Source: a bacterium
GTDB taxonomy: Bacteria > SZUA-79 > Acidulodesulfobacterales > Acidulodesulfobacteraceae
Direction of reading: 5' to 3'
Assembly (NCBI GenBank): GCA_021800805.1
Contig: JAJYYR010000001.1
Coordinates: forward strand, 620,001-684,000
Length of the DNA stretch: 64,000 nt
This document shows positions 26,691-61,685 of the stretch, in pieces. Below the pieces are notes generated by a model. That model worked only from the letters and a program-made list of their open reading frames with translations, was not told where the DNA came from and ran no database searches. The position numbers were made by a program, and so were the translations under genes. The stretch's first letter is position 1, and each line of letters starts with the position of its first letter.

Positions 26691-26715
26691 TGCATTTTTT
26701 GACAATCCCTGAACA

Positions 26716-26788: not shown

Positions 26789-26798
26789 TTTCTAAAGA

Positions 26799-26876
26799 AA
26801 ACAAAGGGGACAGATTTATTTATTCTCTTACTCCCGACTGCGTTTGACGACGCCGTCGGGAGTTTTTTTTATTTCT
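26799..26876 (+). repeat. REP-like hairpin repeat, copy 6
   Basis: This is a tandem duplicate of copy 5 with the same stem, loop, tail and T tract. Together copies 4-6 form three consecutive terminator-shaped hairpins after the pilin gene. Confidence 0.8.
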
Positions 26877-40928: not shown

Positions 40929-41022
40929 AAATCGGCGGGGTGGTAATATAATAATCTTTAATCGAGGCGGAGGATGAAATGCCGCCCCTGAGACCGTTCA
41001 AAATTATGTGTCAATATTTTAC

Positions 41023-41073
41023 TGGTAGGCACGGGCGGTCTCGAACCGCCGACCCCTACCGTGTCAAGGTAAG
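41023..41073 (-). tRNA. 3' half of a tRNA-Val(GAC) gene (integration site remnant)
   Basis: On the minus strand this reads anticodon loop TTGACAC, anticodon-stem and variable bases, a T arm GGCGG-TTCGAGA-CCGCC, acceptor strand CGTGCCT, discriminator A and encoded CCA (CCA ends at 41023). The D arm and the 5' acceptor strand (AGGCACG expected) are missing; AT-rich unrelated sequence follows instead. It is therefore not a working tRNA but the kind of 3' fragment left at the end of an integrated element. The integrase gene begins 153 bases away on the side where the 5' half should be. Confidence 0.8.
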
Positions 41074-41189
41074 GAACAAAGCAACCTTAACAACGCTTAA
41101 TTACTGATATTATGCCGATTATAGCCGATAAAGCTGTTTGTCCTATCGTGTCTTTTTTTATTGTATTTTACCGTATTTTATATTATAAT

Positions 41190-42349: not shown

Positions 42350-43315
42350 ATGACTAGAAGCATGTATTTTAACTATATTGAATCGAAAATATCTTTTCTT
42401 TCATACCGGATAGAAAACAGAGGAAGCCTTAATATTTTTGATTTCAATATTCATGCAGAAAATTTCTATATGTATCTTTTTAATAAAATGTTTAATCTTG
42501 AACTTAAAAATATAAATAACGCTCATAAAAACTATGAAGCGATTGATCTAGTTGATGAAAAGAATAAAATTGTCGTTCAGGTTTCAGCGACGGCCACAAA
42601 AGATAAAATTGAGTCTGCTTTATCAAAGAATATAATAAACTCATATAAGGATTACACCTTTTATTTTATTTCGATTTCGAAAGATGCCTCCGGACTAAAA
42701 AATAAAACATATGTGAATCCTATCGGGATTATTTTTAACCCACAAGAACATATCTTTGATATATCCACAATTCTTAAAACAGTTTCAGCTATGGACATTG
42801 ATCAATTACGAGATGTTTATGAGTTTATAAAAAAAGAACTTGGGCAACAGTATGATATACCTAAGTTAGAATCAAATCTTGCACATATTATAAATATCTT
42901 AGCAGAAGAAAATTTATCCGATGGATTTGAAATCAATATTAATGAGTTTGAAATAGAGCGAAAAATTGGATTCAATGAACTTGTAAAAGCAAATTATGCC
43001 ATTGACGATTATAAAGTTTATTATGGTATCCTAAATAAAAAATATACAGAATTTGACAAGTTCGGCAAAAATAAAAGCTTTTCTGTTCTTAAAGCAATTA
43101 GAAATGAATATATATCTAATTTGAATATTCCAAATAATGATGATAAATTTTTTAAAATAATTGAAAATATTAAAAATAAAATTATATTGAGTCCAAACTT
43201 TAATGAAATCCCAACTGAAGAATTAGAGCTTTGCGTTAATATTATAGTGGTTGATGCTTTTATAAAATGTAAGATTTTTAAAAACCCCAAAGGTTATAAC
43301 TATGCTTCTTCCTGA
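42350..43315 (+). CDS. SMEK-domain protein, effector component of an ABC-3C system
   Basis: The 321-residue protein opens with YFNYIESKISFLSYRIENRGSLNIFDFNIHAENFYMYLFN and continues with NKIVVQVSATATKDKIESAL and YTFYFISISKD, which is the SMEK pattern: a helical part followed by a VQVSATA-containing nuclease-like core with E/D and Q/K candidates (EAIDLVDEK, VVQVSATA). The second half (residues 170-321) is helical. The next two genes, a 75-residue protein and a DUF2326-type ATPase, overlap it in turn, which is the gene order of ABC-three-component systems. Effector activity on invading nucleic acid is inferred from that family. The DNA is more AT-rich than the host genes. Confidence 0.78.
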   Translation: MTRSMYFNYIESKISFLSYRIENRGSLNIFDFNIHAENFYMYLFNKMFNLELKNINNAHKNYEAIDLVDEKNKIVVQVSATATKDKIESALSKNIINSYKDYTFYFISISKDASGLKNKTYVNPIGIIFNPQEHIFDISTILKTVSAMDIDQLRDVYEFIKKELGQQYDIPKLESNLAHIINILAEENLSDGFEININEFEIERKIGFNELVKANYAIDDYKVYYGILNKKYTEFDKFGKNKSFSVLKAIRNEYISNLNIPNNDDKFFKIIENIKNKIILSPNFNEIPTEELELCVNIIVVDAFIKCKIFKNPKGYNYASS

Positions 43316-43529
43316 TAACATTGACCCTGAAAATACTATTTATTATAATGGGGCAATTGTTTTAAAAGCGTTGCAATCAAATCCCCAACAATCTCTCCTA
43401 GATTTATATATAAATGTAAAACAACAACGAAACATGGGCTTTCCAATATATATATTATCTCTTGATTGGCTTTTTATTTTAGGAGTGGCTATCCTAAATA
43501 ATAAAGGAGAAGTTATTTTATGTTCCTAA
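43302..43529 (+). CDS. Small middle component of an ABC-3C system
   Basis: The 75-residue protein (MLLPDNIDPENTIYYNGAIV...) overlaps the preceding gene by 14 bases and the following ATPase gene by 10 bases. The sequence KALQSNPQQSLLDLYINVKQ followed by PIYILSLDWLFILGVAILNNKGEVILC resembles the short 'middle component' proteins of ABC-3C systems, which contain a winged-helix-like fold and join effector and ATPase. No other function is evident. The tight overlaps imply that all three proteins are made together. Confidence 0.72.
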   Translation: MLLPDNIDPENTIYYNGAIVLKALQSNPQQSLLDLYINVKQQRNMGFPIYILSLDWLFILGVAILNNKGEVILCS

Positions 43530-45235
43530 AATCTTTAATTATAACGAGCGATTCTGAAATTATAAGGAATATTGATTTTAAAAATGGCATAAATTTAATA
43601 GTAGATGAGACCCTTTCGACAGAAGATAAATCAACCGGTAATAATGTAGGCAAAACAACCGTTTTAAAATTGATAGATTTTTGTTTAGGCGGGAATCCTA
43701 AAGCGATATATACGGATAATGAATACAAAAAGCAAGAATACTCTTTCGTGAAAGATTTTTTAATTAAAAATAAAATTTTAATCACTCTTGTATTAAATGA
43801 ATCTTTAGATGCCGAAAAAATAAAAACAATTACCATAGAACGTAATTTTTTACCAAGAAAAGACATTATAAGGCGGATAAACGGCGAATCTTTCACTGAA
43901 GAAGAATTTGAATTAAAATTATTAAAATTAATATATCCAGAGCATGACAGTGAAAAGCCCACTTTTAGACAACTTATATCGCACAATATAAGATATAAAG
44001 ATGAAAATATTAATAATACTTTAAAAACGCTTGATAAGTACACAACTGATGCAGAGTATGAAGCGCTCTATTTATACCTATTTGGATGTAGATTTAAGGA
44101 AGGCGACAAAAAACAAGAATATCTAACATTATTAAAACAAGAGGAGTCTTTTAAAAAAAGATTAGAAGCACATCAAACAAAAACTGCTTATGAAACGGCT
44201 TTAAGTTTAATCGAAATGGATATAGAAGAATTAAATAAAAGAAAAAGTAATTTAAATTTAGATGTTGAGTTCGAACTAAAATTAAATGAATTAAATAAAT
44301 TAAAATATCAAATAAATAAAATAAGCTCCGAAATTTCAAATTTAGATATTCGAATGAACTTAATCAAGGAAGCCAATGAAGAATTACTATCTTCTAAAAC
44401 AAATATAGATGTTGAAGAATTAAGGCAAATCTATAATCAGGCCGTTAATTTTATAGATAAGATACAAAAAACATTTGAAGATTTAGTTAAATATCACAAT
44501 ACGATGATAGAAGAAAAAATAAAATATATTTCAAAGGAATTGCCTGATTTAAAAACAAATATAAAGTCTAAAAAAGAACATTTGCAGAGACTGCTTGAGC
44601 AAGAAAAAAAATTAACAGATAAAATTATTAAAACCGATTCTTTTGCGGACTTGGACAAAATCGTAACAGAGTTAAATGAAAAATTTATGAAAAAAGGAGA
44701 ATATGAAAACGTTTTACAACAGCTCGAAGACGTTGAAAGAAATATCAGAGATTATACTAATAAATTAGATAAAATTAATGATGGTCTGTTTTCGCGAGAT
44801 TTCGAACAAATTGTTAAAATTCAACTTGATAAATTTAACCGGTTTTTTTCAGATATATCTAATTATCTTTATAATGAACGTTACGCAGTTAAATATGACA
44901 TAGTTACAGATAAGAATGGTCGCCGATTATATAAATTTAGTTCATTTAATACAAATTTGAGTTCCGGAAAAAAACAGGGTGAAATTTCTTGTTTTGATAT
45001 TGCTTATACGCTTTTTGCAGATCAAGAAAAAATTAATTGTCTTCATTTTATTCTAAACGATAAAAAAGAATTAATGCATGACAATCAGCTTATTAAAATT
45101 GCTAAAATAGTAGAAAAAAAAGGGATACAATTTGTTGCGTCAATACTACAAGATAAACTCCCCGAAGAACTAAATAAAAAAGAAAATATTATATTAAAAT
45201 TATCGCAACAAAATAAACTTTTCCGTATTGAGTGA
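43520..45235 (+). CDS. DUF2326-type ABC/SMC-like ATPase of an ABC-3C system
   Basis: The 571-residue protein has an N-terminal Walker A GNNVGKTT (residues 40-47) followed by LKLIDFCLGG, a long coiled coil (about residues 200-440), then FNTNLSSGKKQGEISCFDIA, a signature-like motif, and INCLHFILNDKKELMHD as Walker B with a D-loop. This layout with a split ATPase head and central coil matches DUF2326 proteins. ABC-3C ATPases are proposed to sense non-self nucleoprotein and trigger the effector. AAAGGAG precedes the ATG. Confidence 0.82.
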   Translation: MFLKSLIITSDSEIIRNIDFKNGINLIVDETLSTEDKSTGNNVGKTTVLKLIDFCLGGNPKAIYTDNEYKKQEYSFVKDFLIKNKILITLVLNESLDAEKIKTITIERNFLPRKDIIRRINGESFTEEEFELKLLKLIYPEHDSEKPTFRQLISHNIRYKDENINNTLKTLDKYTTDAEYEALYLYLFGCRFKEGDKKQEYLTLLKQEESFKKRLEAHQTKTAYETALSLIEMDIEELNKRKSNLNLDVEFELKLNELNKLKYQINKISSEISNLDIRMNLIKEANEELLSSKTNIDVEELRQIYNQAVNFIDKIQKTFEDLVKYHNTMIEEKIKYISKELPDLKTNIKSKKEHLQRLLEQEKKLTDKIIKTDSFADLDKIVTELNEKFMKKGEYENVLQQLEDVERNIRDYTNKLDKINDGLFSRDFEQIVKIQLDKFNRFFSDISNYLYNERYAVKYDIVTDKNGRRLYKFSSFNTNLSSGKKQGEISCFDIAYTLFADQEKINCLHFILNDKKELMHDNQLIKIAKIVEKKGIQFVASILQDKLPEELNKKENIILKLSQQNKLFRIE

Positions 45236-46090: not shown

Positions 46091-46183
46091 TTAACCAAAA
46101 TGCACCTCCTTAGGAGTTTTATATCTTAAAGATTGGTGAAGCCTTTCGTTATTATAAAATTTGAAATGATGTTCGGTTATTCC
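46091..46183 (-). pseudogene. 3' remnant of an IS3-family transposase gene
   Basis: On the minus strand a frame ends EHHFKFYNNERLHQSLRYKTPKEVHFG-stop (TAA at 46091-46093). It matches the last residues of IS3-type transposases (YNxxRxHQSLxYxTPxEV). The upstream transposase and the inverted repeats of the element are gone. The fragment lies immediately before the HamA-like gene on the other strand, so an insertion sequence once sat at or near the start of that gene. Confidence 0.75.
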
Positions 46184-46237
46184 GCAAAAGGTGTTCTATT
46201 AAAACGGAATACACAACAGAAGTCAAAAGGTGGAATA

Positions 46238-47056
46238 TTGCAACATATTAAAAAATGGCTCACTAAAACCAGTGGAACATTAAATACTGCTGATAGTAAA
46301 ACTGTAGAAATCTGGGAGTTAAAATATGGCTCGAATGATGTAATTTTATCATCATGGGCAAAACATTTCAGAAATCACTATTGTTCAGATAATCAAATTG
46401 ATTCTTTATGTAGCGGAACGGGTCTAACCCACACAGAATATCTCAATCAAATAAAGTTTCCTGACTCTAACCGCGCACCTGGTCCGAGTATTCGAGCTGG
46501 TGACTTCGGCGAAATACTGGTTGCGGATTTCCTCGAATATATCTTAAGTTATTGGGTTCCGAGGACCCGCTATGACAACAAAAATATCCGTAACGAATCT
46601 ACGAAGGGCAGCGATATTATAGGGTTTCGTTTTGTGAACAGTAATACAATAAATCCTATAAATCCTATGGATGAATTAGCCATATTTGAGGCTAAAGCAC
46701 AATTTTCTTCAAGCAAATCATCCCCGCGTTTGCAAGATGCCGTGGATGACTCTGGTAAAGACAAAATAAGAAAGGCAGAAACTTTAAATGCAATAAAACA
46801 AAGATTTTTAGATCGCCATGAAGAAGATAACGCTAAAAAAATAGAACGTTTTCAGAATGAAGAGGATAGCCCGTATAAGGAAATTTACGGAGCTGTGGCG
46901 CTTTTTGATAACAGATTTTTTAATCATGTTCTTGAGTCTTCAACCGATTCCTCGAGCCATCCATCTTTAACCAATCTTACGATGATTGTCATTAAAGGGG
47001 ATGACATGATGAAACTGGTTAATGAACTTTATAAGAGGGCGGCAGATGAAGCCTGA
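46238..47056 (+). CDS. hamA: HamA-like nuclease of a Hachiman-type defence system (DUF1837)
   Basis: From TTG 46238, preceded by AAAGGTGGA, the protein has 272 residues. Helices (HIKKWLTK, WAKHFRNHYCSDNQIDSL) lead to the DUF1837 core: GPSIRAGDFGEILVADFLEY with E92, NESTKGSDIIGFRF with D126, and IFEAKAQFSS with E151-x-K153, a PD-(D/E)xK nuclease pattern. RLQDAVDDSGKDKIRKAETLNAIKQR follows. A longer in-frame start at 46133 would read through the IS3 remnant on the opposite strand and is probably not native, so the true N-terminus may have been altered. hamB overlaps its end. Hachiman nucleases degrade DNA on phage infection. AbpAB is a close alternative. Confidence 0.85.
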   Translation: MQHIKKWLTKTSGTLNTADSKTVEIWELKYGSNDVILSSWAKHFRNHYCSDNQIDSLCSGTGLTHTEYLNQIKFPDSNRAPGPSIRAGDFGEILVADFLEYILSYWVPRTRYDNKNIRNESTKGSDIIGFRFVNSNTINPINPMDELAIFEAKAQFSSSKSSPRLQDAVDDSGKDKIRKAETLNAIKQRFLDRHEEDNAKKIERFQNEEDSPYKEIYGAVALFDNRFFNHVLESSTDSSSHPSLTNLTMIVIKGDDMMKLVNELYKRAADEA

Positions 47057-50000
47057 ACGTAAATCTCTAAATCTTCTTGCCCAGGCTAGATCAAAAGCCA
47101 AGATGTTTGAATATGATGTTCCAGATGATTATCATATTGGACTCAGGCAGGATCCTGCAAAACTTTTTACCCTTTCCATTGGCCTTTTAGGAGATGCAGC
47201 AGCCGAAATTAATAGAAAAGAGAGATTGTCTTCCGTTGATATTGAGCAGTCGCGAAAAGAATTGCTTTTCTCATCTCATTTCTTTGATGCATATTTGCAA
47301 TCTAAATTAAACAAAGACCTCGACCCTTATTTAATCCTTCTTGGTTCTGCTTCATATTATTTATGCGATTTACCTGGCAGCGCTAAAGTTTTGGCTGAAC
47401 AAATTAACGGAAGACCTCTTGACCTTGGGTGCAATGGTTTGGAAAATTTGCTTATATGGCTATTAAAGGCTGACTTATCGGCTGATTTAAGCATTGCCGA
47501 TGAGTCGGTTAGTCAAATTTTATTGTCTATTCGTAAATTTTTTGAAGACGGTCTCGAACGGGATAAGCTAATTAAATCTGCCGACCTTCTTAGAGAAAAA
47601 GCTTACGAGTCTGGAATCCCACGAAAACTTTTATTCTGCGATGCTATTTCCGCCGTTATTAAAAAGAAAATAAAAAACTCATGCTGGGAATCTTTGCCTT
47701 TATATTCCGGAATATCACAAAATAAATGGAAAGAAGTATTGCAAAAAAAGTCGTTCATAAAAGAACTTTGGCCAGCACAACATCTTATCGGCGAAGCTGA
47801 CGTTTTTAAGGGTAAATCAGCGGTAATACAGATGCCGACAAGTGCTGGTAAAACTAAAGCTACCGAGATCGTAATACGCAGCGCTTTTCTTTCCAATCGC
47901 ACTTCTATGGCAATTATCGTAGCTCCGTTTAGGGCGCTTTGCCAAGAGATAAAAAACAGCCTGCTTGAAGCATTTAATAATGAGCTTGTTGGAGTAGATG
48001 TATTAACCGACGCATTGCAAACTGATTTTAGTGTTTCAAATTTTATGGAACACCAGATATTGGTTGTTACGCCGGAAAAACTGCTTTATGTGCTTCGTCA
48101 TGTGCCGGAATTTGCATCTAATGTCGGTCTTTTAATTTTTGACGAGGGACATCAATTTGATAACGACATACGTGGTGTAACCTATGAGTTGTTAATCATA
48201 TCCTTACTTTCTATGTTGCCCAAAGGGGCTCAAAAAGTATTAATTTCGGCCGTAATCAAAAATGCAAAGGAGGTAGGCGAATGGTTGAATGGTAATTCTA
48301 ATGTTGTAAATGGGGCAAGCTTAAACCCTTCATATAGGTCTATTGGATTTACAAGTTGGTCTGATACTTTAGGAAGAATAGAATATGTTTCCAATAAAAA
48401 TCCCGACCAAAATGAATTCTACGTACCTAGGGTTATAGAAAGTATTAGGCTTAGAAAAAACCCCGGAGAAAGAACATTGAGATTATTTCCTAAAAAAAAC
48501 GAAGGACAAGATATAGCTCTTTATCTTGGCTTAAAATTGGTTAAAAATGGTAGCGTGGCCATATTTTGCGGTCGCAAAGATACGGTAGGTAAAATCTACA
48601 AGAGGGCATTAGAGATTATCGAAAGGGATTTGTCTTTTCCGCTACCGAAAGATTTTTCAAAACAAGACGAGATTGACAAACTATATTTTTTACACAAGGA
48701 GAATTTTGGTTCTAATGCTTCAATATCTAAAAGCGCTTATTATGGTATCTTTTCTCATCACGGCAGTATTCCTAATGGCATAAGGTTAGCAATAGAACAC
48801 GCCTTGCGCGAAAATCTTATTAAATTTGTTATTTGCACTTCAACTTTAGCTCAAGGGGTCAATCTTCCAATTCGTTATTTGATAATAACTGGAGTTAACC
48901 AAGGTAGGAAGGCTATGAAGATCCGTGATTTTCAAAATCTTATAGGCAGGGCAGGTCGTGCTGGTATGTATACGGAAGGTAGTATTTTATTTGCTGATAA
49001 CAAATTATATGATAATAAATTTGGAAAATATGAAAAATGGAATTGGAAACGAATTAAAGATTTTTTAGATCCGGTTAACTCTGAAGAATGCAATAGTAGT
49101 TTACTTGCTATTTTCGATCCGATCCTCAGTGAGGATAAAAAAAATAAATTGAATGTGAGCTTTGTTGATATCTATGAAGCAAAAGAACAGAATAATATCT
49201 TTAATTTTGTCGATGAAATTTTGAGAAAAAATACGGTGAATGGATTTACTAAAAACAATGTTGAGGAACAGATAGATTTAAAAATTTCCCTTATTGCTGC
49301 AGTTGAGAATTTCTTATTATCCCATTGGGACTGGGATGAAAAAGCATTCTCAGTGGAAGATACTATTTCTCTTGCCGAGAAGACCCTTGCCTTTCATTTA
49401 GCGGATGAAAAGAATAAAGACAATATTTGTAATTTATTCAAGTTAATTGCTAATAATATTTCAATAAATATTACGGACCCTGAACGTCGAAAAGCATATG
49501 GAAAAACACTCTATGGAATACAAGTCGCAAAATCTATTGAAGAGTGGGTCAAGGACAATATAGATGCTTTTATAGCCGCTGTTAACGACGAAGATATTAT
49601 TGAACTTATTTGGCCTCTATTTATGGAACATATCAAAAATAAAATATTTAAAAAATTTGACGTGGATTTGTTAAAAAAAATCTCAAAAAAATGGATCGAA
49701 GGTAGCCCATATCATGAATTGCTATCGATAATAAACGGGGACGAAGCCGAAACCGGAAAAAATAGTTTAAATATTGAAGATATAGTTGAAATATGTGAAA
49801 GGGCACTATCTTATGATGGTAATCTGATTATTAATGCTATATGTGAATTTATTATAGCTATAGGTAATGGTAGTAATGAAAACTTAATAAAGCGGCTTCA
49901 AGCTTTCCAGAAGCGTCTAAAATATGGATTGCCAAGAAAGGCCGTCATTTTAATATACGAACTAGGTTTTTCTGATCGAGTAATTTCACAAGGTATGGCC

Positions 50001-50135
50001 AAGTCATTAAATATAAATAGTATAAATATGGAAGATATAAAAAATGAACTTAGGTCAAAAAAAGATGAGGCTATTTCGTTTATTGATCTATACCCGTCTT
50101 ATTATGCTAAAAGGATGAAAGAATTTATAGGGTAA
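47046..50135 (+). CDS. hamB: HamB-like DEAD/DEAH helicase of a Hachiman-type system
   Basis: The 1029-residue protein starts at ATG 47046 inside the end of hamA (11-base overlap, Shine-Dalgarno GAGGG). After a helical N-terminal domain (about residues 1-240) it has the superfamily 2 core: Walker A PTSAGKTKA with K269, FDEGHQF with D366-E367-G368-H369, a motif III-like SAVI, the strand containing FVICTSTLAQGVNLP (motif V) and FQNLIGRAGRAG (motif VI). The C-terminal 400 residues are helical and unconserved by eye. HamB is proposed to sense DNA damage or DNA ends and release HamA nuclease. The gene is longer than its N-terminal context needs and appears intact. Confidence 0.85.
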   Translation: MKPERKSLNLLAQARSKAKMFEYDVPDDYHIGLRQDPAKLFTLSIGLLGDAAAEINRKERLSSVDIEQSRKELLFSSHFFDAYLQSKLNKDLDPYLILLGSASYYLCDLPGSAKVLAEQINGRPLDLGCNGLENLLIWLLKADLSADLSIADESVSQILLSIRKFFEDGLERDKLIKSADLLREKAYESGIPRKLLFCDAISAVIKKKIKNSCWESLPLYSGISQNKWKEVLQKKSFIKELWPAQHLIGEADVFKGKSAVIQMPTSAGKTKATEIVIRSAFLSNRTSMAIIVAPFRALCQEIKNSLLEAFNNELVGVDVLTDALQTDFSVSNFMEHQILVVTPEKLLYVLRHVPEFASNVGLLIFDEGHQFDNDIRGVTYELLIISLLSMLPKGAQKVLISAVIKNAKEVGEWLNGNSNVVNGASLNPSYRSIGFTSWSDTLGRIEYVSNKNPDQNEFYVPRVIESIRLRKNPGERTLRLFPKKNEGQDIALYLGLKLVKNGSVAIFCGRKDTVGKIYKRALEIIERDLSFPLPKDFSKQDEIDKLYFLHKENFGSNASISKSAYYGIFSHHGSIPNGIRLAIEHALRENLIKFVICTSTLAQGVNLPIRYLIITGVNQGRKAMKIRDFQNLIGRAGRAGMYTEGSILFADNKLYDNKFGKYEKWNWKRIKDFLDPVNSEECNSSLLAIFDPILSEDKKNKLNVSFVDIYEAKEQNNIFNFVDEILRKNTVNGFTKNNVEEQIDLKISLIAAVENFLLSHWDWDEKAFSVEDTISLAEKTLAFHLADEKNKDNICNLFKLIANNISINITDPERRKAYGKTLYGIQVAKSIEEWVKDNIDAFIAAVNDEDIIELIWPLFMEHIKNKIFKKFDVDLLKKISKKWIEGSPYHELLSIINGDEAETGKNSLNIEDIVEICERALSYDGNLIINAICEFIIAIGNGSNENLIKRLQAFQKRLKYGLPRKAVILIYELGFSDRVISQGMAKSLNINSINMEDIKNELRSKKDEAISFIDLYPSYYAKRMKEFIG

Positions 50136-52951: not shown

Positions 52952-53752
52952 TTATTTAAATTGTTTATTGAAAGATTCAATTAAAAATTCCGATATTGTT
53001 TTTGCAGAATTAACCGCAAGTTTTGCATGATGTTTTTCCGGTTTCTGTCGTCGCGCATGTGAATCGCTCATCTTATTGCGCATTTCTGCTAAACCGTCCA
53101 CTACTGAAATCAGGCCAGAAAGCATTTTGGCTATATGATTAGGATATTTGGGGTCCGATGGATTTAACTTTAAGATAGCTCTTATTTTTTTATAGCCATC
53201 TAAAATGTCCCCCTTATAGTCGTCTTCCTGATTATTGTTTGATAAAATATGTTTTATTATCGTTTCAACTATAGTTCGGGCATTTGTAATTGCCCCGTCA
53301 AAATCGCCATCTTTAATTTTATTATCGCATTTTTCGATTTGCTCTTTTAAATAATCATCGTTTAGCTTTAATAAGGCATCTGGTTTTATATCATTTTCCA
53401 ATGAATACACTTTATATCTTTTACCAGAAAAACGTAATTCAAATCCGTCGTAATATATGGTTTTATTTATTTTATCAACTACATTTTGAACACTGCTTTT
53501 GTTGTCAATATATAAAACGGGGTCAACGACTTCTTCAAGTAATTTTTTGAGGTTATCCGTGCCGTTTAATTCTTTTAATTTTCTTTCGGCATACACATAT
53601 CTAGTAGGAAATCCTTGAGCATAACTATCTTTGGACTCGCAGTGCCTATTAAACAATTCGACGAGAACAGGGCCTGATCTATAAAGCGTATCGGTTATAT
53701 CTCCTGTTATAATTTCTGATAATTTATGAATGTGAGATTCGTCTATCTTCAT
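52952..53752 (-). CDS. Abi-C (abortive infection C-terminal) domain protein, HEPN-like
   Basis: The 266-residue protein has a variable N-terminal half (about residues 1-125) and a C-terminal Abi-C-type domain: NDDYLKEQIEKCDNKIKDGDFDGAITNARTIVETIIKHIL, then ILDGYKKIRAILKL and GLISVVDGLAEMRNKMSDSHARR. The R-N-x-x-S-D-x-H motif (R-x4-6-H) is the HEPN ribonuclease motif, so an RNA-cleaving abortive-infection role is plausible from family knowledge. There is no clear Shine-Dalgarno before the ATG. The N-terminal half probably senses the trigger and I do not recognise it. Confidence 0.8.
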   Translation of the reverse strand: MKIDESHIHKLSEIITGDITDTLYRSGPVLVELFNRHCESKDSYAQGFPTRYVYAERKLKELNGTDNLKKLLEEVVDPVLYIDNKSSVQNVVDKINKTIYYDGFELRFSGKRYKVYSLENDIKPDALLKLNDDYLKEQIEKCDNKIKDGDFDGAITNARTIVETIIKHILSNNNQEDDYKGDILDGYKKIRAILKLNPSDPKYPNHIAKMLSGLISVVDGLAEMRNKMSDSHARRQKPEKHHAKLAVNSAKTISEFLIESFNKQFK

Positions 53753-54124: not shown

Positions 54125-54646
54125 TTATTTTTCCGTTTTAAATCCTATCTTCCTTGCCGGTTTTTCCGGCGGAGCCATTAGCTGCCTGATAGCGTCGAAA
54201 ATAGCTTTTATTTCGTCGTCATGCCGTTCCACTTTCAGTTCAAGCTGGTTTAGTTTTCGGGCGAGTTCCTTATTGCTTTCGATTAACCCCCGCAATCTGA
54301 CGAATACCCTCATTATCGCAATATTTACCTGAATTGCCCTGTCGCTGTTAAGGACGCCGGACAGCATTGCTACGCCCTGCTCGGTGAATACGTAAGGCAA
54401 ATGTCCGCCGAAATATTTTTTAGATGGTATCACATTTTGTGATACCATCATATCCGCTTCGGAATCCGATAACTGAAACATAAAATCATTGGGAAAACGC
54501 TCTATATTTCTTTTGACGGCCTGGTTTAAAACTCTTGTTTCTACGTCGTAAAGCTCAGCAAGGTCTTTATCGAGCATAACCTTCTTATTGCGTATAAAAT
54601 AGATTTTGTTTTCGATTAGTTCCGTCGGGATAATGGAATTTGGCAT
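54125..54646 (-). CDS. ORF6N domain-containing protein
   Basis: The 173-residue protein has an N-terminal ORF6N domain: LIENKIYFIRNKKVMLDKDLAELYDVETRVLNQAVKRN, RFPNDFMFQLSDSEAD and a GGHLPYVFTEQGVAMLSGVL block, followed by a coiled coil (NKELARKLNQLELKVERHDDEIKAIFDAIRQL) and a basic tail. ORF6N/KilA-N proteins are DNA-binding accessory proteins found in phages and mobile elements. It heads the minus-strand group that includes the Abi-C-like gene. Its target is unknown. Confidence 0.9.
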   Translation of the reverse strand: MPNSIIPTELIENKIYFIRNKKVMLDKDLAELYDVETRVLNQAVKRNIERFPNDFMFQLSDSEADMMVSQNVIPSKKYFGGHLPYVFTEQGVAMLSGVLNSDRAIQVNIAIMRVFVRLRGLIESNKELARKLNQLELKVERHDDEIKAIFDAIRQLMAPPEKPARKIGFKTEK

Positions 54647-54742: not shown

Positions 54743-57580
54743 TTAATCCATCTTCTTTTTTATTGTATATCTATATTTTTTTCTGACCGATTTGGCGGGT
54801 TTCTTTGTTGTCGGCATGAAATATTCATTAATATGTTCGGTATATCGACATCCTTTTGTGTAATTTTCGCAGCCCAAAAACTTATTGCTATTTTCACGAT
54901 TTTGCCTTTCGACCAACAGTCCTGTTCCGCATTTAGGACAAACTTTTGGTATATTGCAACTGTCGTTGAATATAATCCCGTCTTTTTTAGGTTGTCTTAT
55001 AATATCTAACATGAATGGTGAATATCCGTATTTATTTGATAGTATTACCGCTTCCTTTTTTGCCCTCGTCAGCGCTACGTAAAAAAGCCTTCTTTCTTCG
55101 GGATACTCGATACCTGAATTATTCTGCGGCAGCATTAAATCTAAAAGGGGATCGTTTTCAAGTATCCCAGGAAAACATCTCCAATCTATGGATATATCGA
55201 ATAAGCCCAGTATAATAATATAATCGGCTTCCAATCCCTTAGAACCATGTATTGTCGAAAATTCTATATCGCATACATCGTTAAATAACTCTTTAATGGA
55301 TTTTACGTCATCGGCATCTAACCCAACGGTATGTTTCATTGTATATCTGCTTAATATAAATATTTTTGGTCTTTTTTTATTTGAATCTATTGACAGCCAA
55401 TTTTGAATCGATTCCTCGACGATTTTTTTTATTTCGGCATCGTCCTTGTATGTCTTAATGTTAATAACGGCGTTCTTTCTTTTATCTACTGCTGAAACGG
55501 ATTTTCTTTTTAAAAAAGAATCTTCTTGAACGAATAAAGATGCTATATCGCTTATTCCCTGATTACTCCTGAATGTTTTAGTAAGATAAACTTCATTAGT
55601 CGGACCAAAATAAGACGCAAATCCGTTGAATATATTTAGATCGGCGCCCTGAAATCCGTTTATGGATTGCCAGTCGTCTCCTACGCCGAAAAGAATGCCG
55701 TCTTCATGTTGATCCAATGCGGCTTTTATCATTTTAGCTTCGCCTGAGGTAATATCTTGAAATTCATCTATCAGCATAAATTTATAGGGCGTATCGACTA
55801 TATTTTCGTCGAGGTATTTTCCCGCAAGCCCTATCATATCGGCATAATCTATTTTATTGTCTTCTTTAAGTATTTCATTATATTTTTTTATTATAGTCGT
55901 TAGAACTTCAATAAATAATCGCGCCCTAATTATGTCTTTCTGTCTATTTATTCTATTTAATAAATGCTTCTTGGTAAAACCGTTGGATTTAACAAGGGAA
56001 ACGCCTCTCAAAATCAGGACGTCGATATTGTTTATCCCTATTTCTTTTAATTTTTCGTCTATTTCCCTATTATCGCGTAATATGGGATTTAAACCCAACG
56101 ATTTAATCTTATTTTCGAGTTTATCTAACAATGTTCCGTCGAAATACTCGGCGCTAGTCGTATAGAAATTTAACGGATTTAATTTTTTCATAATCTCTAT
56201 TTTTCGCTTTGCCTGCAATTCGTATTCTTCGGGGTTGTCGAAAAAGGCAGGTGCTTTAAATTTCTTGTTTAACGCAAAATGTTCGTGATATACCTTTGCT
56301 TTTGGATAATAAAAATCAGGGTTATAGCTATCCCACTCTGCGCTTATCCTTCCTTCTTCCCACTGTTTTTCGTATTCAAAATCTATACCGTGGATATAAA
56401 GCCAGTTTGCTATTACCGCCTCCTCGAAAGAACGTACGAAATGACCCGATAACGTTTTAATCCCTTTGTTTTGATAGTTGTTTTTATAAATATTCTCTAA
56501 ATATCTATCGTATTCTTCTTGGTTGGCAAAATCGGTAGCGACTGGATTTTGTATATGAATAGTGCTTTTTAATAGAAAATAATTAATTTTGAAAATCGTA
56601 TCCGTCCCTAAGAGAGAAGTTATGGCTTTATTAATATAAGAATTCGATTCACCTTCGCCAAGTATATTTTTCGTTTCTTTCTTTTTTATTACAGACAAAC
56701 CGAACGAGTGAAATGTTTGCGCTTTTACTTTGTCGATATTTTTAACTATATTCTTTTTAGATTCAAGTCTCTCTTGCATTTCCTTAGCCGCATTTTTATT
56801 GAATGCGATGCACACTATTTCTTCCGGCTTAAATAAACCTTTTTCGATAACGTAGGCAACCTTGCCTGTAATAACTGATGTTTTGCCCGAACCGGCAGCG
56901 GCAACGACGAGATTATTTTCTTCCATTATTACAGCTCCTATCGCTTGCTCGTGCGTTAAAGGATTATGTTCTATGCGTTTAAACAAATTGTCGTATTTTT
57001 TAATTTCATTTTCCGCGTATTCATCGTTTCTGTCGTTTATTACGCGATCTGCTTTATTGAAAAAATGGTTTAAATAATTAAAAAGAGAGGTTAACTTTTC
57101 GTGATTCGGGGTTTCGACGAATAGCGGCTTGGATATCAGTTTTTTATATGGTTTAAATAATTTTTCCCATTCGATAGATTCGACAAAACTTAGTTTATCT
57201 CTATTTGCTATATATTTATCGGTTTGCAAAAAATCTTCGACCGCTTTTTTTGCAGATTCCATAGAAAATATTAACGAAGCAATTTCTTTGTTTAGATTTT
57301 CTTTTTCAAATTCAATTTTATTCTTAATAATATTATCGATATAATTATATAAAATTTTGGCGTTTTTATTAGAAAGCCCCCTAAAAATATATTTTTTATT
57401 TTGAGCGTGCAAAATAACCGACGAAAAAAGAAAATTGCGGATGATATTCGTTTTAGATGAACAATCGATTATAATCTTGATATTTTTAAATAAAATATAA
57501 TCCTTGCCTTCCAAACGCAATTCAAAGTTATTGTTTGCCAAAATAAAACGCCAAAATATAAACGGCTTTATTGTTTGCAT
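54743..57580 (-). CDS. UvrD/HelD-like superfamily 1 helicase with embedded nuclease-like segment and zinc finger
   Basis: The 945-residue protein has Walker A AAGSGKTS (G230-T234 region), then an insert of about 100 residues at 380-480 with EEAVIANWLYIHGIDFEYEKQW and YNPDFYYPKAKVYHEHFAL, in which E404, D422 and E433 fit a PD-(D/E)xK-like pattern. Walker B is LIDEFQDI with D605-E606, and motif V/VI blocks are TIHGSKGLEADYI and LFYVALTRAKKE. The C-terminus (CPKCG...CENYTKGCRY) is a topoisomerase-type zinc ribbon. This matches the helicase IV (HelD) branch. It may act in recombination or defence. It lies between the ORF6N gene and the phage repressor. Confidence 0.88.
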   Translation of the reverse strand: MQTIKPFIFWRFILANNNFELRLEGKDYILFKNIKIIIDCSSKTNIIRNFLFSSVILHAQNKKYIFRGLSNKNAKILYNYIDNIIKNKIEFEKENLNKEIASLIFSMESAKKAVEDFLQTDKYIANRDKLSFVESIEWEKLFKPYKKLISKPLFVETPNHEKLTSLFNYLNHFFNKADRVINDRNDEYAENEIKKYDNLFKRIEHNPLTHEQAIGAVIMEENNLVVAAAGSGKTSVITGKVAYVIEKGLFKPEEIVCIAFNKNAAKEMQERLESKKNIVKNIDKVKAQTFHSFGLSVIKKKETKNILGEGESNSYINKAITSLLGTDTIFKINYFLLKSTIHIQNPVATDFANQEEYDRYLENIYKNNYQNKGIKTLSGHFVRSFEEAVIANWLYIHGIDFEYEKQWEEGRISAEWDSYNPDFYYPKAKVYHEHFALNKKFKAPAFFDNPEEYELQAKRKIEIMKKLNPLNFYTTSAEYFDGTLLDKLENKIKSLGLNPILRDNREIDEKLKEIGINNIDVLILRGVSLVKSNGFTKKHLLNRINRQKDIIRARLFIEVLTTIIKKYNEILKEDNKIDYADMIGLAGKYLDENIVDTPYKFMLIDEFQDITSGEAKMIKAALDQHEDGILFGVGDDWQSINGFQGADLNIFNGFASYFGPTNEVYLTKTFRSNQGISDIASLFVQEDSFLKRKSVSAVDKRKNAVINIKTYKDDAEIKKIVEESIQNWLSIDSNKKRPKIFILSRYTMKHTVGLDADDVKSIKELFNDVCDIEFSTIHGSKGLEADYIIILGLFDISIDWRCFPGILENDPLLDLMLPQNNSGIEYPEERRLFYVALTRAKKEAVILSNKYGYSPFMLDIIRQPKKDGIIFNDSCNIPKVCPKCGTGLLVERQNRENSNKFLGCENYTKGCRYTEHINEYFMPTTKKPAKSVRKKYRYTIKKKMD

Positions 57581-57650
57581 TTAAAGATTGCTTGTAGATT
57601 TTCAAATTAATTGATAAATACTTTTTGATACGGCATACATCGATTGTTTT

Positions 57651-58391
57651 TTAAATATTCTGCCACACCCATACGACCTTTCCTATTACGAAATGGTCGC
57701 CGTCCGTTATTTCTTCTTTTTTTATGAATATATCGTCGAATTTAGGGTTTTCGCTTTTTAAAACAATCCCGTCCCTGTTCTTTATCGCGTATTTTATCAC
57801 GACCCCTTCGTAATCGAGATTGACGCAATATATATATCCGGATATTAATTCTTTGCAATCGGTATCTATAGCGACGTATGCGCCGTCTTTTATAATAGGC
57901 TCCATGCTCGGCCCCATTACCTTAACAACGCTTAAGCGTTTTTTATAAAACTCTTTAGGGACTAAAAGCGTGTCTATCGGTTCTATTTCGGTTAAATCTA
58001 TAAACTTGCCTGCGCCGGCGAAAGAATAAACGGGAACGATTTGATATTTGGATTTGTCGACGGCGGTTTCGTCGGATACGGATAATGCCGGAACAAAGGG
58101 GATGGTGGATTTTGGCTCGCGATGAGGGAAAAAGTAGGAAATATCTAATATTTCAAAAATTTCATTAGGTAATAATTTAAGATTTTTAATATATTTACTT
58201 AGCTTATAGTTTGGTAATGCTCTAATACCTCGTTCATAATTATAATAAGTTTGTCTGTCTTCATTTAACAATGAACTAAACTCATCAATCGTTAAACCTT
58301 TTTTGTCCCTTATCTTTTTAAATTTCTCGCCTAAAGATTCATTGAATTTTTTAACAATATTTATTTCTTTGCTTTGTTTCGCTTTTGTCAT
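57651..58391 (-). CDS. Phage-type repressor with HTH and S24 peptidase domains
   Basis: The 246-residue CI/LexA-like repressor has an N-terminal XRE helix-turn-helix (LTIDEFSSLLNEDRQTYYNYERG) and a C-terminal S24 domain: cleavage site FAGAG (A125-G126 or A127-G128), Ser162 in GPSMEP and Lys200 in VVIKYA, the dyad for self-cleavage. It should repress the lytic promoter of the divergent cro gene and be inactivated after DNA damage. It faces that gene across 142 bases containing operator-like palindromes. Both domains look intact, so the element could still be inducible. Confidence 0.92.
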   Translation of the reverse strand: MTKAKQSKEINIVKKFNESLGEKFKKIRDKKGLTIDEFSSLLNEDRQTYYNYERGIRALPNYKLSKYIKNLKLLPNEIFEILDISYFFPHREPKSTIPFVPALSVSDETAVDKSKYQIVPVYSFAGAGKFIDLTEIEPIDTLLVPKEFYKKRLSVVKVMGPSMEPIIKDGAYVAIDTDCKELISGYIYCVNLDYEGVVIKYAIKNRDGIVLKSENPKFDDIFIKKEEITDGDHFVIGKVVWVWQNI

Positions 58392-58533
58392 TGTAAAACA
58401 ATAATATTAAAGGATTTTAGTTATTTCAATATTCAATATGAAAATTTTTTAAAAAAAATACTTGACTTGTTTTCAAATTGTTTATATTATATTTTCAATA
58501 TGAAAACTAATTAACAAAAAAGGAAGATAAATA
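58392..58533. promoter_or_regulatory. Lysogeny control region: divergent promoters and operators
   Basis: TTTTCA-ATA-TGAAAA (58492-58506) is a perfect palindrome. ATTCAATATGAAAA at 58431-58444 is a close second copy, and TTTTCA at 58470-58475 is a third half-site. A near-consensus promoter TTGACT-N17-TATTAT (58462-58490) for the rightward genes overlaps them. The arrangement is that of a phage immunity region, with repressor on minus and Cro-like gene on plus. Confidence 0.75.
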
Positions 58534-58749
58534 ATGAATATACATCCGTTAAAAATATATTGTCTTAAAAATAAAATCAAGCAAAAAAAGCTTGCGGAAT
58601 TAGTCGGTATTTCAGAAATTACTATCCATAGAATAGTAAACTATAAAACTAAATTATATCACAAGAAGACTATCCAAAAACTCCATGCTTTTACTGGAAT
58701 TCCAATAAATGATCTTATTTATAAGGAGGCATCCAGTGAAAACGATTAA
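58534..58749 (+). CDS. Cro-like XRE-family regulator
   Basis: The 71-residue protein is one helix-turn-helix domain (LKIYCLKNKIKQKKLAELVGISEITIHRIVNYKTKLYHKKTIQKL) with a short acidic tail. It is the first gene right of the immunity region and is divergent from the S24 repressor, as Cro is in lambdoid phages. AAAAGGAAG precedes the ATG. Antagonism with the repressor is inferred from position. Confidence 0.87.
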   Translation: MNIHPLKIYCLKNKIKQKKLAELVGISEITIHRIVNYKTKLYHKKTIQKLHAFTGIPINDLIYKEASSEND

Positions 58750-58921
58750 TAAATCGCATGATTTATATTTATCGCAAGTATTAGAGGAATATAAGAAATC
58801 CTTGCGACTATCCAAAAAATATCCTGACGATAAAATTCTAAAAATTCAAGTAAGTTGCGATAAATATACCATTAAATCTTTAATTTTAAAGGAATATATA
58901 AAAAAATGGCAAGAAAGCTAA
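58736..58921 (+). CDS. Hypothetical small early phage protein
   Basis: The 61-residue protein starts at GTG 58736, seven bases after AAGGAGG and inside the end of the Cro-like gene. The sequence KTINKSHDLYLSQVLEEYKKSLRLSKKYPDDKIL is basic and helical. A longer frame beginning at 58709 has no Shine-Dalgarno. No domain is recognised. It ends 15 bases into the next gene, so it is part of a tight early operon. Confidence 0.6.
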   Translation: MKTINKSHDLYLSQVLEEYKKSLRLSKKYPDDKILKIQVSCDKYTIKSLILKEYIKKWQES

Positions 58922-59208
58922 ATGTGAATATCCAGAACCACGAACTATTCATGATTGAAAAAAACGACCTCGAAAGCTTAATGGAGGTCTTTTCCAAACC
59001 GAAAAAGTATCTCACGGTGAGCGAAGCGGCGAAATATCTAAATATCGCGGATTCGACCGTTTACGAACTAATCAGGGAAAGGCAGATACCGCATAGTAAA
59101 ATTAAATCGAAAATACTTATAGATATAAAAGACCTTGACGCTTTTTTCAAAAAAAACAGGGTTCAGAATTTGGAAAAGGCATTAAATAAGGTTAAGGTTA
59201 AATTCTAA
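58906..59208 (+). CDS. Excisionase-like helix-turn-helix protein
   Basis: The 100-residue protein has a MerR/excisionase-type DNA-binding domain: KKYLTVSEAAKYLNIADSTVYELIRERQIPHSKIKSKILIDIKDLDAFFKK. This is the HTH_17 fold typical of Xis proteins and of phage and plasmid accessory regulators. An excisionase would bias the integrase at 41226 toward excision, but that gene is 17 kb away and another target is possible. It overlaps the previous gene. Confidence 0.82.
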   Translation: MARKLNVNIQNHELFMIEKNDLESLMEVFSKPKKYLTVSEAAKYLNIADSTVYELIRERQIPHSKIKSKILIDIKDLDAFFKKNRVQNLEKALNKVKVKF

Positions 59209-59228
59209 AATAAAAAAGGAGCGGGATA

Positions 59229-59435
59229 TTGAAATTAAAGGAGTTAAGGCTAAAATTAAACCTTTCGCAGCAAAAGTTCGCCGACCTTCTCGGAGTAAAT
59301 AAGATGTCCATTTATTATATCGAAAAGGGAAAAAGAAAAATGTCGGTTAAAGTAGCGGTAAGGGCTATAGAAGCGGCAAAAAGTAAAAATATAAATTTAA
59401 CCCTGAACAATTTTTACGAAGAACTCAATAGATAG
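59229..59435 (+). CDS. XRE-family regulator
   Basis: The 68-residue protein starts at TTG after AAAGGAGCGGG and contains one HTH domain (LKELRLKLNLSQQKFADLLGVNKMSIYYIEKGKRKMSVKVAVRAIEAAK). A second small regulator in the same early operon suggests layered control. Its DNA target is unknown; the immunity region palindromes or the replication gene are candidates. Confidence 0.85.
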   Translation: MKLKELRLKLNLSQQKFADLLGVNKMSIYYIEKGKRKMSVKVAVRAIEAAKSKNINLTLNNFYEELNR

Positions 59436-59445
59436 GAGAACGACA

Positions 59446-60984
59446 ATGTCCGAAATTAAATGGATTAAGATAAAAACAGACATCTTCGACGACGAAAAAA
59501 TCAAGTTAATCGACGCAATGCCTGATCGGGACGCAATTTTAGTTATATGGTTTAAATTGCTGGCTCAAGCCGGAAAATGCAACGCGAACGGTACCGTCGT
59601 CTTCAGCGGAAAAGTTCCTTATTCCGACGAAATGCTGTCCGCCGTATTTAACCGACCCTTAAATACCGTGAGGTTGGCGTTAAAAACGTTTCAGGAATTC
59701 GCCATGATAGAAATATCCGAAGATAAAATTATCCGTATTAATAATTGGAATAAACATCAGAATATAGAAGGAATGGAGAAAGTAAAAGAACTGCACAGGT
59801 TAAGCCAGGAAAAATACCGAAATAAACAGAAGTTGTTAGCTTGCGATTTCGACGAATTGGAAAGTAATATTTACCAAAGCTATTTAGACGGAAATAGTCT
59901 TAGAGAAATAGGGAATAAATTTAATATTTCAAAGGATACGGCAAATAGGATTATTAAAAAGATTAAATCGGCGGCATGCGAAATTTCAAATTCCGTCTCA
60001 CGAGACGGCTCAAATTTAAACGTATGCAACGATGAAGCCCGTGATGTCACGGATAAAAATCAAACCGTCTCGTTAGTGTCGCACGACTGTCTCGCAAGTG
60101 TCTCGCAAGTGTCTCAAAAGTGTCTCGCTACTGTCTCGCAAGTGTCTCAATGTGAGACGGAAACTGTCTCAAAAACTGTCTCAAATCTTGTCTCACGAGA
60201 CGGCTCAAATCCAGAATATATAAAGGATTATGGCAGTGATTATCACGGTGATGTCTCAGTGATGTCTCGTGACGCCTTAGATATAGATAAAGATAAAGAT
60301 AAAGATATAGAAAAAGAAAATATAAAAAAAGAGGAGGAGGATAAGCGCAGCAGCGAAAATCGCTCCTGCGCTAAACCGATATCCCCGATAATTTCATTCG
60401 ATTTTAAAACCAATTCTTTTTGCGATATACCCGATTCGGTTATGCTGCTTTTACGAACCGCTTATCCTGAAATAGATACCAATTCGGAATTAAAAGAAAT
60501 TTCCCTCTGGCTTGCCGCACATCCGGACAGGGTCAGCGAAATTAATAACGACGACGGCAATTTTATCAGGTTTATCGTAAAGTGGTTTAGAAACGAAATC
60601 GATAAAAGCAAGACTGGTTTACAAAAAGATAAAAGTCGTCCGGCAAAACCGGCAAGCAAGAAATACGCCGTAACCTTTAATCCCGAATCCGCAATATTGG
60701 AAGGACTTTCGGATAATGATATTAACATCTTGAGATCCAAATTTCCGGCTTTAGACATCGATGCGGAAATCAGGCTCATGGAATCTTGGTTATTCAGTAA
60801 TCCAACGAGAAGACCTAAAAACATTATGCGGTTTATCAATATCTGGCTTACTAAAAATCAAGATAAAGCCGCGATGAAATCTCTTAACAACTTTGCTTAT
60901 AAAACTAAAGACGAAATTCGCATGGAAAGGAACAAAGAGGTTTCGGACAGGATGGAACAAAAGATACTGGCGGGGTTGTTATGA
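59446..60984 (+). CDS. Phage replication organizer protein with duplicated C-terminal domain
   Basis: The 512-residue protein begins with a phage replisome organizer N-terminal winged helix (MSEIKWIKIKTDIFDDEKIKLIDAMPDRDAI, PYSDEMLSAVFNRPLNTVRLAL) over about 120 residues, then an HTH (SLREIGNKFNISKDTANRIIKKIK). A low-complexity Ser/Val/Gln region (residues 183-275) is encoded by the iteron-like array at 59993-60268. The C-terminal half has two similar modules (P-x-x-D-x-x-x-E...WLxxxPxR...RFIxxW near 345-390 and 420-475). It resembles lambda O in having an origin inside its gene. It would bind the array and recruit the helicase loader. Confidence 0.83.
   Translation: MSEIKWIKIKTDIFDDEKIKLIDAMPDRDAILVIWFKLLAQAGKCNANGTVVFSGKVPYSDEMLSAVFNRPLNTVRLALKTFQEFAMIEISEDKIIRINNWNKHQNIEGMEKVKELHRLSQEKYRNKQKLLACDFDELESNIYQSYLDGNSLREIGNKFNISKDTANRIIKKIKSAACEISNSVSRDGSNLNVCNDEARDVTDKNQTVSLVSHDCLASVSQVSQKCLATVSQVSQCETETVSKTVSNLVSRDGSNPEYIKDYGSDYHGDVSVMSRDALDIDKDKDKDIEKENIKKEEEDKRSSENRSCAKPISPIISFDFKTNSFCDIPDSVMLLLRTAYPEIDTNSELKEISLWLAAHPDRVSEINNDDGNFIRFIVKWFRNEIDKSKTGLQKDKSRPAKPASKKYAVTFNPESAILEGLSDNDINILRSKFPALDIDAEIRLMESWLFSNPTRRPKNIMRFINIWLTKNQDKAAMKSLNNFAYKTKDEIRMERNKEVSDRMEQKILAGLL
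59993..60268. repeat. Iteron-like array with 11-bp periodicity (candidate replication origin)
   Basis: GTCTC cores occur at 59995, 60067, 60089, 60100, 60111, 60122, 60133, 60144, 60166, 60178, 60190, 60253 and 60264, and inverted GAGAC at 60002, 60154 and 60197. A degenerate GTCGC at 60078 gives eight sites from 60067 to 60144 exactly 11 bases apart (unit TGTCTCGCAAG). Two copies of GTCTCACGAGAC (59995-60006, 60190-60201) flank the array. An AT-rich, GATAAA-repeated stretch follows (60278-60340). The layout resembles a lambda-type origin with iterons and a melting region inside the initiator gene. Confidence 0.8.
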
Positions 60985-61685
60985 CCGAAAAAGAAAAAAT
61001 AAGGCTTAAAAATGCGTTAATAGTATGTGCCGAAAGCTATAACAGAGCTTTATCCGACGGTGTTATCGAGTTGTATTTTACATGTTTAAAACACTATCCC
61101 ATAGAAAAAGTTCTTTCGGCTTTAATGTCGTGTATTAAGGAAATCTCTTTTATGCCGACGGTACACGATATTATAGCAAGAATAGAATCTTGTCCGGCAG
61201 ACGGACAAAACGACCCCGAAGCCCGTGCGGAGCAGGCTTGGAGTTATGTTTTAAAGGCAATAGAATATTGCGGAGCGTATAAATCTTTTACGTTTAAAGA
61301 TGTCGTTATTAGAAAGGTCATCGATACTTGGGATTTCAAAGTTTTGTGTAATACCGATAGGGAAAAAATACACTGGAAGAAAAGAGAATTTACCGATTCC
61401 TATAAAAATTTTTTAAAACTAAAAACAGAATTAAATGCGCCGTTATATTTTGCTGGAGAGCTTGAATTGCAAAATTCAAACATATTCGATGCCGAAAAAT
61501 ATAAGGATGGATATATGGGTCAATATGTTTTAGTAATAGATGAAAATATTAAAAAGATAAAACACGAAGAACTTAAGCTCTTTCTTGAAGGCGATAAGAG
61601 CGATAAAAATATTGCATCCGTTAAAAGCGGCAAAATTATAGAAATTAAAAAACAAGGGGTGATAGAAAATGCGGCAGGTAAATGA
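60981..61685 (+). CDS. Putative phage replication protein (helicase-loader position)
   Basis: The 234-residue protein overlaps the replication organizer by four bases (ATGA). Its N-terminal part (KALIVCAESYNRALSDGVIELYFTCLKHYPIEKVLSALMSCIKEISFMPTVHDIIARIE) is helical and matches the DUF6475-like, replication-P-type arrangement, and it ends in a mixed tail. Position after an O-like protein suggests a helicase loader. The sequence lacks a Walker A motif, so it is not an AAA+ DnaC-type loader. Confidence 0.6.
   Translation: MTEKEKIRLKNALIVCAESYNRALSDGVIELYFTCLKHYPIEKVLSALMSCIKEISFMPTVHDIIARIESCPADGQNDPEARAEQAWSYVLKAIEYCGAYKSFTFKDVVIRKVIDTWDFKVLCNTDREKIHWKKREFTDSYKNFLKLKTELNAPLYFAGELELQNSNIFDAEKYKDGYMGQYVLVIDENIKKIKHEELKLFLEGDKSDKNIASVKSGKIIEIKKQGVIENAAGK

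Follow-up and report, generated by a model that had tools for sequence, protein, structure and literature searches.

In the part of the published account available to us (PMC3349717), the origin of phage lambda lies within gene O and consists of four iterons of 18 bp together with an AT-rich segment of 38 bp. For phage SPP1, the accessible text of PMC6316719 describes G38P (gp38) as binding direct repeats of oriL within gene 38, with an AT-rich unwinding element also present. The rep gene of Lactococcus phage Tuc2009 (AF109874) is annotated in its database record with the words 'contains origin of replication', and the linker portion of that gene holds direct repeats, four copies of CAACCA at 11-bp spacing; the rep gene of TP901-1 has three copies of CCAGAT at 15 bp. 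Neither the Tuc2009 nor the TP901-1 Rep protein matched the PF09681 profile built in this work (E<=1).

The locus considered here lies in a stretch of 64,000 nucleotides, called the window throughout, and has iterons inside an initiator gene and an AT-rich segment beside them, as in lambda and SPP1. It resembles lambda in that the repeats and the adjoining AT-rich segment both fall within the gene, and Tuc2009 in that direct repeats occupy the linker of the initiator, although the core is a different one. The lambda-type layout proposed in an earlier reading of the DNA (the sequence-only reading) thus agrees with what the available parts of the lambda and SPP1 papers describe (PMC3349717, PMC6316719). 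From the comparisons set out below, the segment 59995-60345 is very probably the replication origin of the element in which it lies, and this phage-like element probably has two distinct functional arrays in its origin, both inside the initiator gene (Table 1).

Table 1. Features of the initiator gene and its neighbours, in window positions
Feature	Position	Strand	Remarks
CI-like repressor gene	57651..58391	-	Peptidase_S24 1.6e-17, HTH_3 1.3e-7; phrog_4
Initiator (replisome organiser) gene	59446..60984	+	512-aa ORF; holds array 1, array 2 and AT tract
Phage_rep_org_N domain, N-terminal, residues 6-125	59461..59820	+	Pfam match
Extra helix-turn-helix (HTH), about residues 141-175	59866..59970	+	Recognition helix SKDTA; weak Pfam matches, model helices, alignment
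Disordered linker, residues 182-313	59989..60384	+	pLDDT <50; carries the arrays and AT tract
First palindrome GTCTCACGAGAC	59995..60006	+	One direct and one inverted core
Isolated inverted pair CGTGATGTCACGG	60040..60052	.	Resembles two quartet-type cores; read from the sequence, away from array 2
Array 1	60067..60201	+	11-bp register 60067-60148 (degenerate 60078), then 60166, 60178, 60190; inverted 60154, 60197
Array 2, family-type quartet	60236..60273	+	GTGAT 60236, GTGAT 60248, GTGAT 60259, GTGAC 60269 (12-11-10 bp)
AT-rich tract, presumed unwinding element	60276..60345	+	77% AT; codes DIDKDKDKDIEKENIKKE
Two tandem C-terminal domain copies, residues 314-392 and 405-482	60385..60891	+	BLASTP and model
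Gene directly after initiator, possible helicase loader	60981..61685	+	PHROGs

The claim that an initiator gene hosts the array is borne out by its protein, which matches PF09681 (E 1.1e-50; 171.1 bits, above the Pfam cut-off of 23.3) and the replisome organizer family phrog_4880 (6e-48), the PHROGs families that it matches being named as replisome organisers and DnaD-like helicase loaders. The extra HTH behind the N-terminal domain gives Pfam matches below cut-off (HTH_28, E 0.0024), which counts against a reading with two DNA-binding domains; the HTH_38 cut-off is reached by the HTH of two relatives, P0002 and P0004, and the structure model has helices in this region at residues 135-147, 152-159 and 163-184. 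The AlphaFold model is weak overall (mean pLDDT 61.7, pTM 0.25), its N- and C-terminal parts being better than the linker. The C-terminal part is, on alignment of its two copies (25% identity over 73 columns, BLASTP E 1e-8), a diverged tandem duplication, and the copies possibly provide a putative contact to the helicase or its loader. With Foldseek, the model gave no match to the PDB at E<=0.001 (the best being CRP-family proteins, E 0.05) and nine matches at that threshold to viral structures, including a Streptococcus phage replisome organiser (3.1e-6). The protein sequence matched no solved structure at E<=0.1, and a search of Rfam returned nothing at gathering scores.

The window reads as bacterial chromosome up to a tRNA-Val gene (41023-41098), directly followed by a tyrosine integrase gene (41226-42260), and the element that carries the initiator gene is integrated at the tRNA-Val of an Acidulodesulfobacterium relative; TypA from the chromosomal side shares 97% and 91% identity with proteins named Candidatus Acidulodesulfobacterium. 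To the right of the integrase gene follow defence-type genes, a CI-like repressor gene, Cro-like, excisionase-like and HTH genes, the initiator gene and the possible helicase loader gene. The product of the last matches the helicase loader family phrog_2289 over residues 15-87 (E 1.1e-8), its best match being phrog_10105 (E 1.2e-26), a family of unknown function. No right end of the element was seen in the window and no virion gene among the ORFs examined, and the element may therefore be either a prophage or a phage satellite. No paper on both Acidulodesulfobacterium and prophage was found in the literature.

Several further features of the window were recorded. The defence region includes a Hachiman-type pair at 46133-50135 (HamA, PADLOC E 5.7e-111; HamB, E 0), and more defence-like genes lie at 42350-45235 and 52952-53752, with matches to a restriction-Argonaute-like N-terminal part (E 2.7e-27), PDC-M68B (E 6.6e-37) and AbiJ (E 5.3e-37). 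An ORF6N-type antirepressor-like gene occupies 54125-54646, and a UvrD-like helicase with matches to GajB and an RT-associated helicase is encoded at 54743-57580. A unit of 83 bp that has a terminator-like inverted repeat is duplicated exactly in tandem (26715-26876), the hexamer GGCGCA is present in 11.7 copies (38378-38447), and 30-bp repeats (40073-40298) encode the Gly-Pro-rich tail of ORF 39572-40339. Single GTCTC sites in opposite orientation are found at 40990 (-) and 41038 (+), at the tRNA-Val beside the integrase gene.

An exact search for GTCTC recovered the thirteen direct cores and three inverted cores that had been claimed, and the one degenerate core was read from the sequence; together they span 274 bp. 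The direct cores lie on the + strand at 59995, 60067, 60089, 60100, 60111, 60122, 60133, 60144, 60166, 60178, 60190, 60253 and 60264, the inverted ones at 60002, 60154 and 60197, and the degenerate core is GTCGC at 60078. The claim of eight sites in exact 11-bp register (60067-60144) holds when this degenerate site is counted; after 60144 the direct cores are separated by gaps of 22, 12, 12, 63 and 11 bp. The two sequence copies said to flank the array were found, as the palindrome GTCTCACGAGAC, at 59995 and 60190, and array 1 terminates in the second copy (60190-60201), but the flanking is not strict, since direct cores 60253 and 60264 lie further downstream. Around the thirteen direct cores strong constraint is seen only at -1 (T in 11 of 13), +5 (7 A, 6 G) and +8 (A in 10 of 13); most spacer columns vary, and the five core columns are constant because they define the sites. 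The AT-rich region reported after the array coincides with the AT maximum of the gene, the 60-bp segments starting at 60276 and 60277 having 81.7% AT against 60.9% for the whole gene.

GTCTC is not enriched over the window as a whole (47 sites against 40.5 expected; 17 of 100 shuffles reach 47), and 16 of the 47 are concentrated in the 274 bp. The gene was compared with synonymous-codon shuffles of itself that keep the protein, 20,000 rounds for core counts and 500 for self-matches at given lags. The 13 direct cores compare with a shuffle mean of 4.8 and maximum of 11, the six 11-bp-spaced pairs with a mean of 0.07 and maximum of 4, and the 16 sites within 275 bp with a mean of 5.0 and maximum of 12; the three inverted cores, taken alone, are not unusual (2,903 of 20,000 shuffles reach 3). 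Self-matches of 5-mers at lags 11, 22, 33 and 44 number 30, 24, 27 and 20 (shuffle maxima 10, 6, 14 and 5) and are marginal at lag 55 (10 against 9) and lag 12 (15 against 14). Chance or codon use as the source of the array is rejected by these shuffles.

The signature of the wider initiator family was sought in PF09681 genes for which DNA was at hand: 121 were found by profile, of which 119 were kept, the window's included, and grouping at 75% identity left 60 representatives. Of 398 sampled genomes from one phylum, 11 had a match above the PF09681 family cut-off. The linkers of the 59 representatives other than the window's contain 146 GTAAC on both strands together (mean 80, maximum 93 in 200 shuffles), and 30 of the 59 have at least three (shuffle mean 12, maximum 18). 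The excess of GTCAC/GTGAC is smaller, with at least three in the linkers of 6 of the 59 against a shuffle maximum of 5, and GTCTC shows no excess. Direct GTAAC pairs at most 40 bp apart in these representatives are spaced solely by 10-12, 21-24, 33, 35 or 36 bp. When all triples of spacings from 8 to 14 bp were scanned, 12-11-10 ranked first, with four identical 4-mers at this spacing in 14 of the 59 genes (mean 0.07, maximum 1 in 60 rounds of shuffling) and four identical 5-mers in 12. Among the 35 genes with at least three GTAAC or GTCAC (one more was set aside as too short), an AT-rich segment (45 bp, top tenth) follows the cores within 50 bp in 32, as against 46% for random places. All such fractions refer to representatives that are related and so are not independent trials. 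A gene-by-gene test for clustered 5-mers counts against the origin reading, 13 of the 60 genes passing at p<=0.01 and 19 at p<=0.05; every clustered 5-mer was eligible, and some of the top-scoring ones were of low complexity. One PF09681-like gene, L220, has GTCAC repeated at 15-bp spacing instead, coding for an SPEA repeat, and ends soon after.

The same pattern, searched for as GTAAC at 12-11-10 in viral contigs and blind to proteins, led back to the family: among the 120 stretches listed, 103 lie inside a same-strand PF09681-like ORF. Among these listed matches, the 103 stretches form 53 of 66 clusters, the other 17 forming 13; many come from near-identical phages, and 20 of the 103 encode a protein whose first 120 residues are identical to those of one used to build the profile. 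With the order of spacings reversed (10-11-12), 22 stretches were found in all, 2 of them in a PF09681-like ORF.

The window follows this rule (derived here, from 14 of 59 representatives) with array 2, a 12-11-10 quartet directly before the AT tract that starts at 60276, its core being GTGA rather than GTAAC. Any quartet of identical 4-mers at this spacing arises in 2 of 2,000 synonymous shuffles of the window gene. An inverted GTGAT lies at 60242, and GTCTC cores 60253 and 60264 interleave with the quartet. The earlier proposal of the GTCTC array as probable origin is supported as to place and revised as to signature, the origin signature of the family being the GTGA(T/C) quartet (60236-60273) and not GTCTC. 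By eye, no clear pattern was seen of N-domain residues covarying with the core. Might the GTCTC cores nevertheless be the iterons bound by the N-terminal domain, with the GTGA quartet as a relic? The GTCTC set is much longer, with 16 exact sites, two of which overlap the quartet; moreover, another initiator type uses 11-bp GTCTC arrays before an AT tract (see below). Yet the quartet retains the family spacing and stands next to the AT tract, and in the 59 relatives that lack the HTH no linker contains as many as three GTCTC. Four HTH-bearing relatives, P0002-P0005, also retain, as inferred from protein, a quartet of GTAA next to an array of GTCCC or GTCTC. An origin with a single array is thus quite improbable.

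The HTH-bearing relatives bear directly on the role of array 1. Candidates of similar length with the most shared words were scored, and ten proteins (P0001-P0010) were aligned; the extra HTH aligns in P0001-P0005 and is absent from P0006-P0010. A profile of P0001-P0005 had 1,987 protein matches, and among the best 120 of these the five score at least 840 bits and the next, P0006, 441. The cores of P0002-P0005 were inferred by back-translation of the protein and not read from DNA. With one gap allowed, the longest 11-bp run that the residues permit is nine GTCTC in P0001 and six in P0005, and seven, seven and eight GTCCC in P0002, P0003 and P0004; in P0005 the top-scoring core is CTGTC, with seven, in a register that overlaps that of GTCTC. 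Residue shuffles (40 per protein, all 1,024 cores) gave best runs of 3 or 4.

Between the GTCTC and the GTCCC proteins, VS becomes VP and CL becomes CP, with SQ or SH unchanged, which is what one base change per core would produce in three reading frames. This frame-by-frame switch makes selection for the peptide unlikely and, together with the synonymous shuffles, supports the earlier claim that selection acts on the DNA. It also weighs on the very remote alternative that tandem duplication or selection for a peptide produced the array, which would have no role as DNA. Slippage does make tandem arrays, and the spacers here are partly alike, but the array exceeds what synonymous shuffles produce, a change of VS to VP and of CL to CP with SQ/SH kept is not expected from peptide selection, and the linker is predicted to be disordered.

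A 12-11-10 quartet beside the AT tract is permitted in all five HTH-bearing proteins, with GTGA as the core for the window's protein and GTAA for the other four. Among eight proteins without the HTH it is permitted on back-translation in P0006, P0012 and P0016 and not in P0007-P0010 and P0241, which counts against the origin reading. P0002-P0004 also permit CCCA at 12-11-10 within array 1, and this geometry is therefore not unique in itself. The recognition helix of the HTH is SKDTA where the core is GTCTC (two proteins) and SKNTV where it is GTCCC (three proteins). P0005 has an N domain 36-40% identical to those of all the others, its HTH is 72% identical to the window's and 55-62% to the rest, and its C-terminus is 80% identical to that of P0002. 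These identities and the correspondence of HTH and core suggest that HTH and array 1 travel together; the link comes from five proteins, of which two have similar first halves, and the N-domain tree divides as the HTH tree does. On these alignments, the odds that the extra HTH is the partner of the GTCTC array are about even.

Arrays of GTCTC are not confined to this gene. Four GTCTC at 11-bp spacing occur in viral contigs in at least 120 stretches, falling into at least 60 clusters (the largest of 27, 18 and 11 loci); the 120 listed include other initiators, non-coding arrays and simple repeats. The array was rejected as a PF09681 marker, since none of the 120 listed stretches has a PF09681-like ORF over it at E<=1e-4, five ORFs matching weakly (E 0.0013-0.018). 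When 20 ORFs over such arrays were hand-picked from their translations, one per cluster from 20 of the 60 clusters, 19 matched replication families of PHROGs, a rate biased by the selection; the exception, L027, is a CI-like repressor. Since such arrays are found over other replication ORFs of viral contigs, an 11-bp array in an initiator gene is, as far as these sequences indicate, a recurrent design.

In one such group the array lies antisense over a DnaD-like initiator ORF, in 15 of the 120 stretches listed at 11-bp spacing, none of 36 at 10 bp and 1 of the 120 listed at 12 bp; ten of the 15 matches trained the profile, and only five are therefore independent. The DnaD-like initiators (L043, L052, L068) share with the window the GTCTC core, the 11-bp spacing and a KDNKDN-type stretch after the array in gene direction; they differ in that the array is antisense, the N-terminal match to PF09681 has E 0.0013 or worse, and there is no Pfam assignment. 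No extra HTH was seen in this other initiator type, and the HTH is thus not needed for GTCTC in general. In L014 and 17 further loci of its cluster, 11-bp GTCTC cores lie where the N-terminal domain of a small replication protein (phrog_3926, E 1.4e-5) ends, and the related viral contigs L028 and L079 carry very large arrays, of 45 and 49 cores in the part inspected. Arrays of GTCTCA at 11 bp that are apparently non-coding were seen in L006 and 26 further loci of its cluster, as well as in L007, L021, L026 and L093; several have a CCTGATACTAGCAT-type motif upstream in common, and one guess is that those of the L006 type are integrase arm sites.

A partition site, integrase arm sites or a repressor operator would each be a most improbable account of the GTCTC array of the window. 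Plasmid partition sites with 11-bp repeats are known, non-coding 11-bp GTCTCA arrays exist in other viral contigs, and there are the single GTCTC sites by the tRNA-Val; but the array lies inside an initiator gene, and the two tRNA-Val sites are not arrayed. The repressor operator in particular was rejected, since GTCTC is absent from 56772 to 59994 and hence from between the repressor and Cro-like genes. A role in control is better placed and still unlikely: array 1 would titrate or couple the initiator, or repress its gene, and so limit replication from array 2. Extra iterons are known to control plasmids, and array 1 is long, has two palindromes and lies away from the AT tract; the same data, however, fit array 1 as an accessory part of the origin.

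The reading that we prefer as probable is a composite origin of the lambda/SPP1 type, with two arrays for two DNA-binding domains. The N-terminal domain would bind the quartet, the extra HTH would load further initiator onto array 1, the resulting nucleoprotein complex would open the AT tract, and the helicase would be delivered there via the C-terminal domains and the product of 60981..61685. A more far-reaching version has a probability of about 0.45. In it, both DNA-binding domains of the initiator would be sequence-specific and each would have an iteron array of its own inside the initiator gene; the HTH and its GTCTC or GTCCC array would be a cassette added upstream of the ancestral quartet, every core of the array changing as the HTH changes; and the disordered linker would largely be a translation of the origin. 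If this is right, four cores at 12-11-10 bp and an AT tract provide a signature with which the origins of many PF09681 phages could be read off. The locus would also be a natural example of an initiator that gained a second DNA-binding domain together with a matching array, and a specificity code could be sought first in the D/N and A/V differences of the HTH that accompany GTCTC and GTCCC. It would further place this initiator type in an Acidulodesulfobacterium-like host.

Close relatives of this arrangement are the PF09681 phages of Streptococcus and relatives, such as SM1 (gp19; L177, with L122 being the same phage). They have the same N-terminal domain and, in the linker, GTAAC cores about a helical turn apart followed by an AT-rich DKDK-type tract. 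They differ from the window in having GTAAC and not GTGA, and neither an extra HTH nor a GTCTC array is present in those read; SM1 gp19, at 265 aa, is also shorter than the window initiator. The likeness to lambda is one of layout, as no O-like family is among the 13 PHROGs families matched by the initiator protein at E<=0.1. For SPP1 the comparison is with the published description of oriL, the accessible part of which mentions neither a second array nor an extra HTH. A literature search found no paper that combines replication initiator, two DNA-binding domains, iterons and phage. The general design, an origin within the initiator gene, is known, and the doubled form looks new against these sources; as far as their available text goes, both the doubled form and the 12-11-10 rule extend beyond the descriptions of lambda and SPP1 (PMC3349717, PMC6316719).
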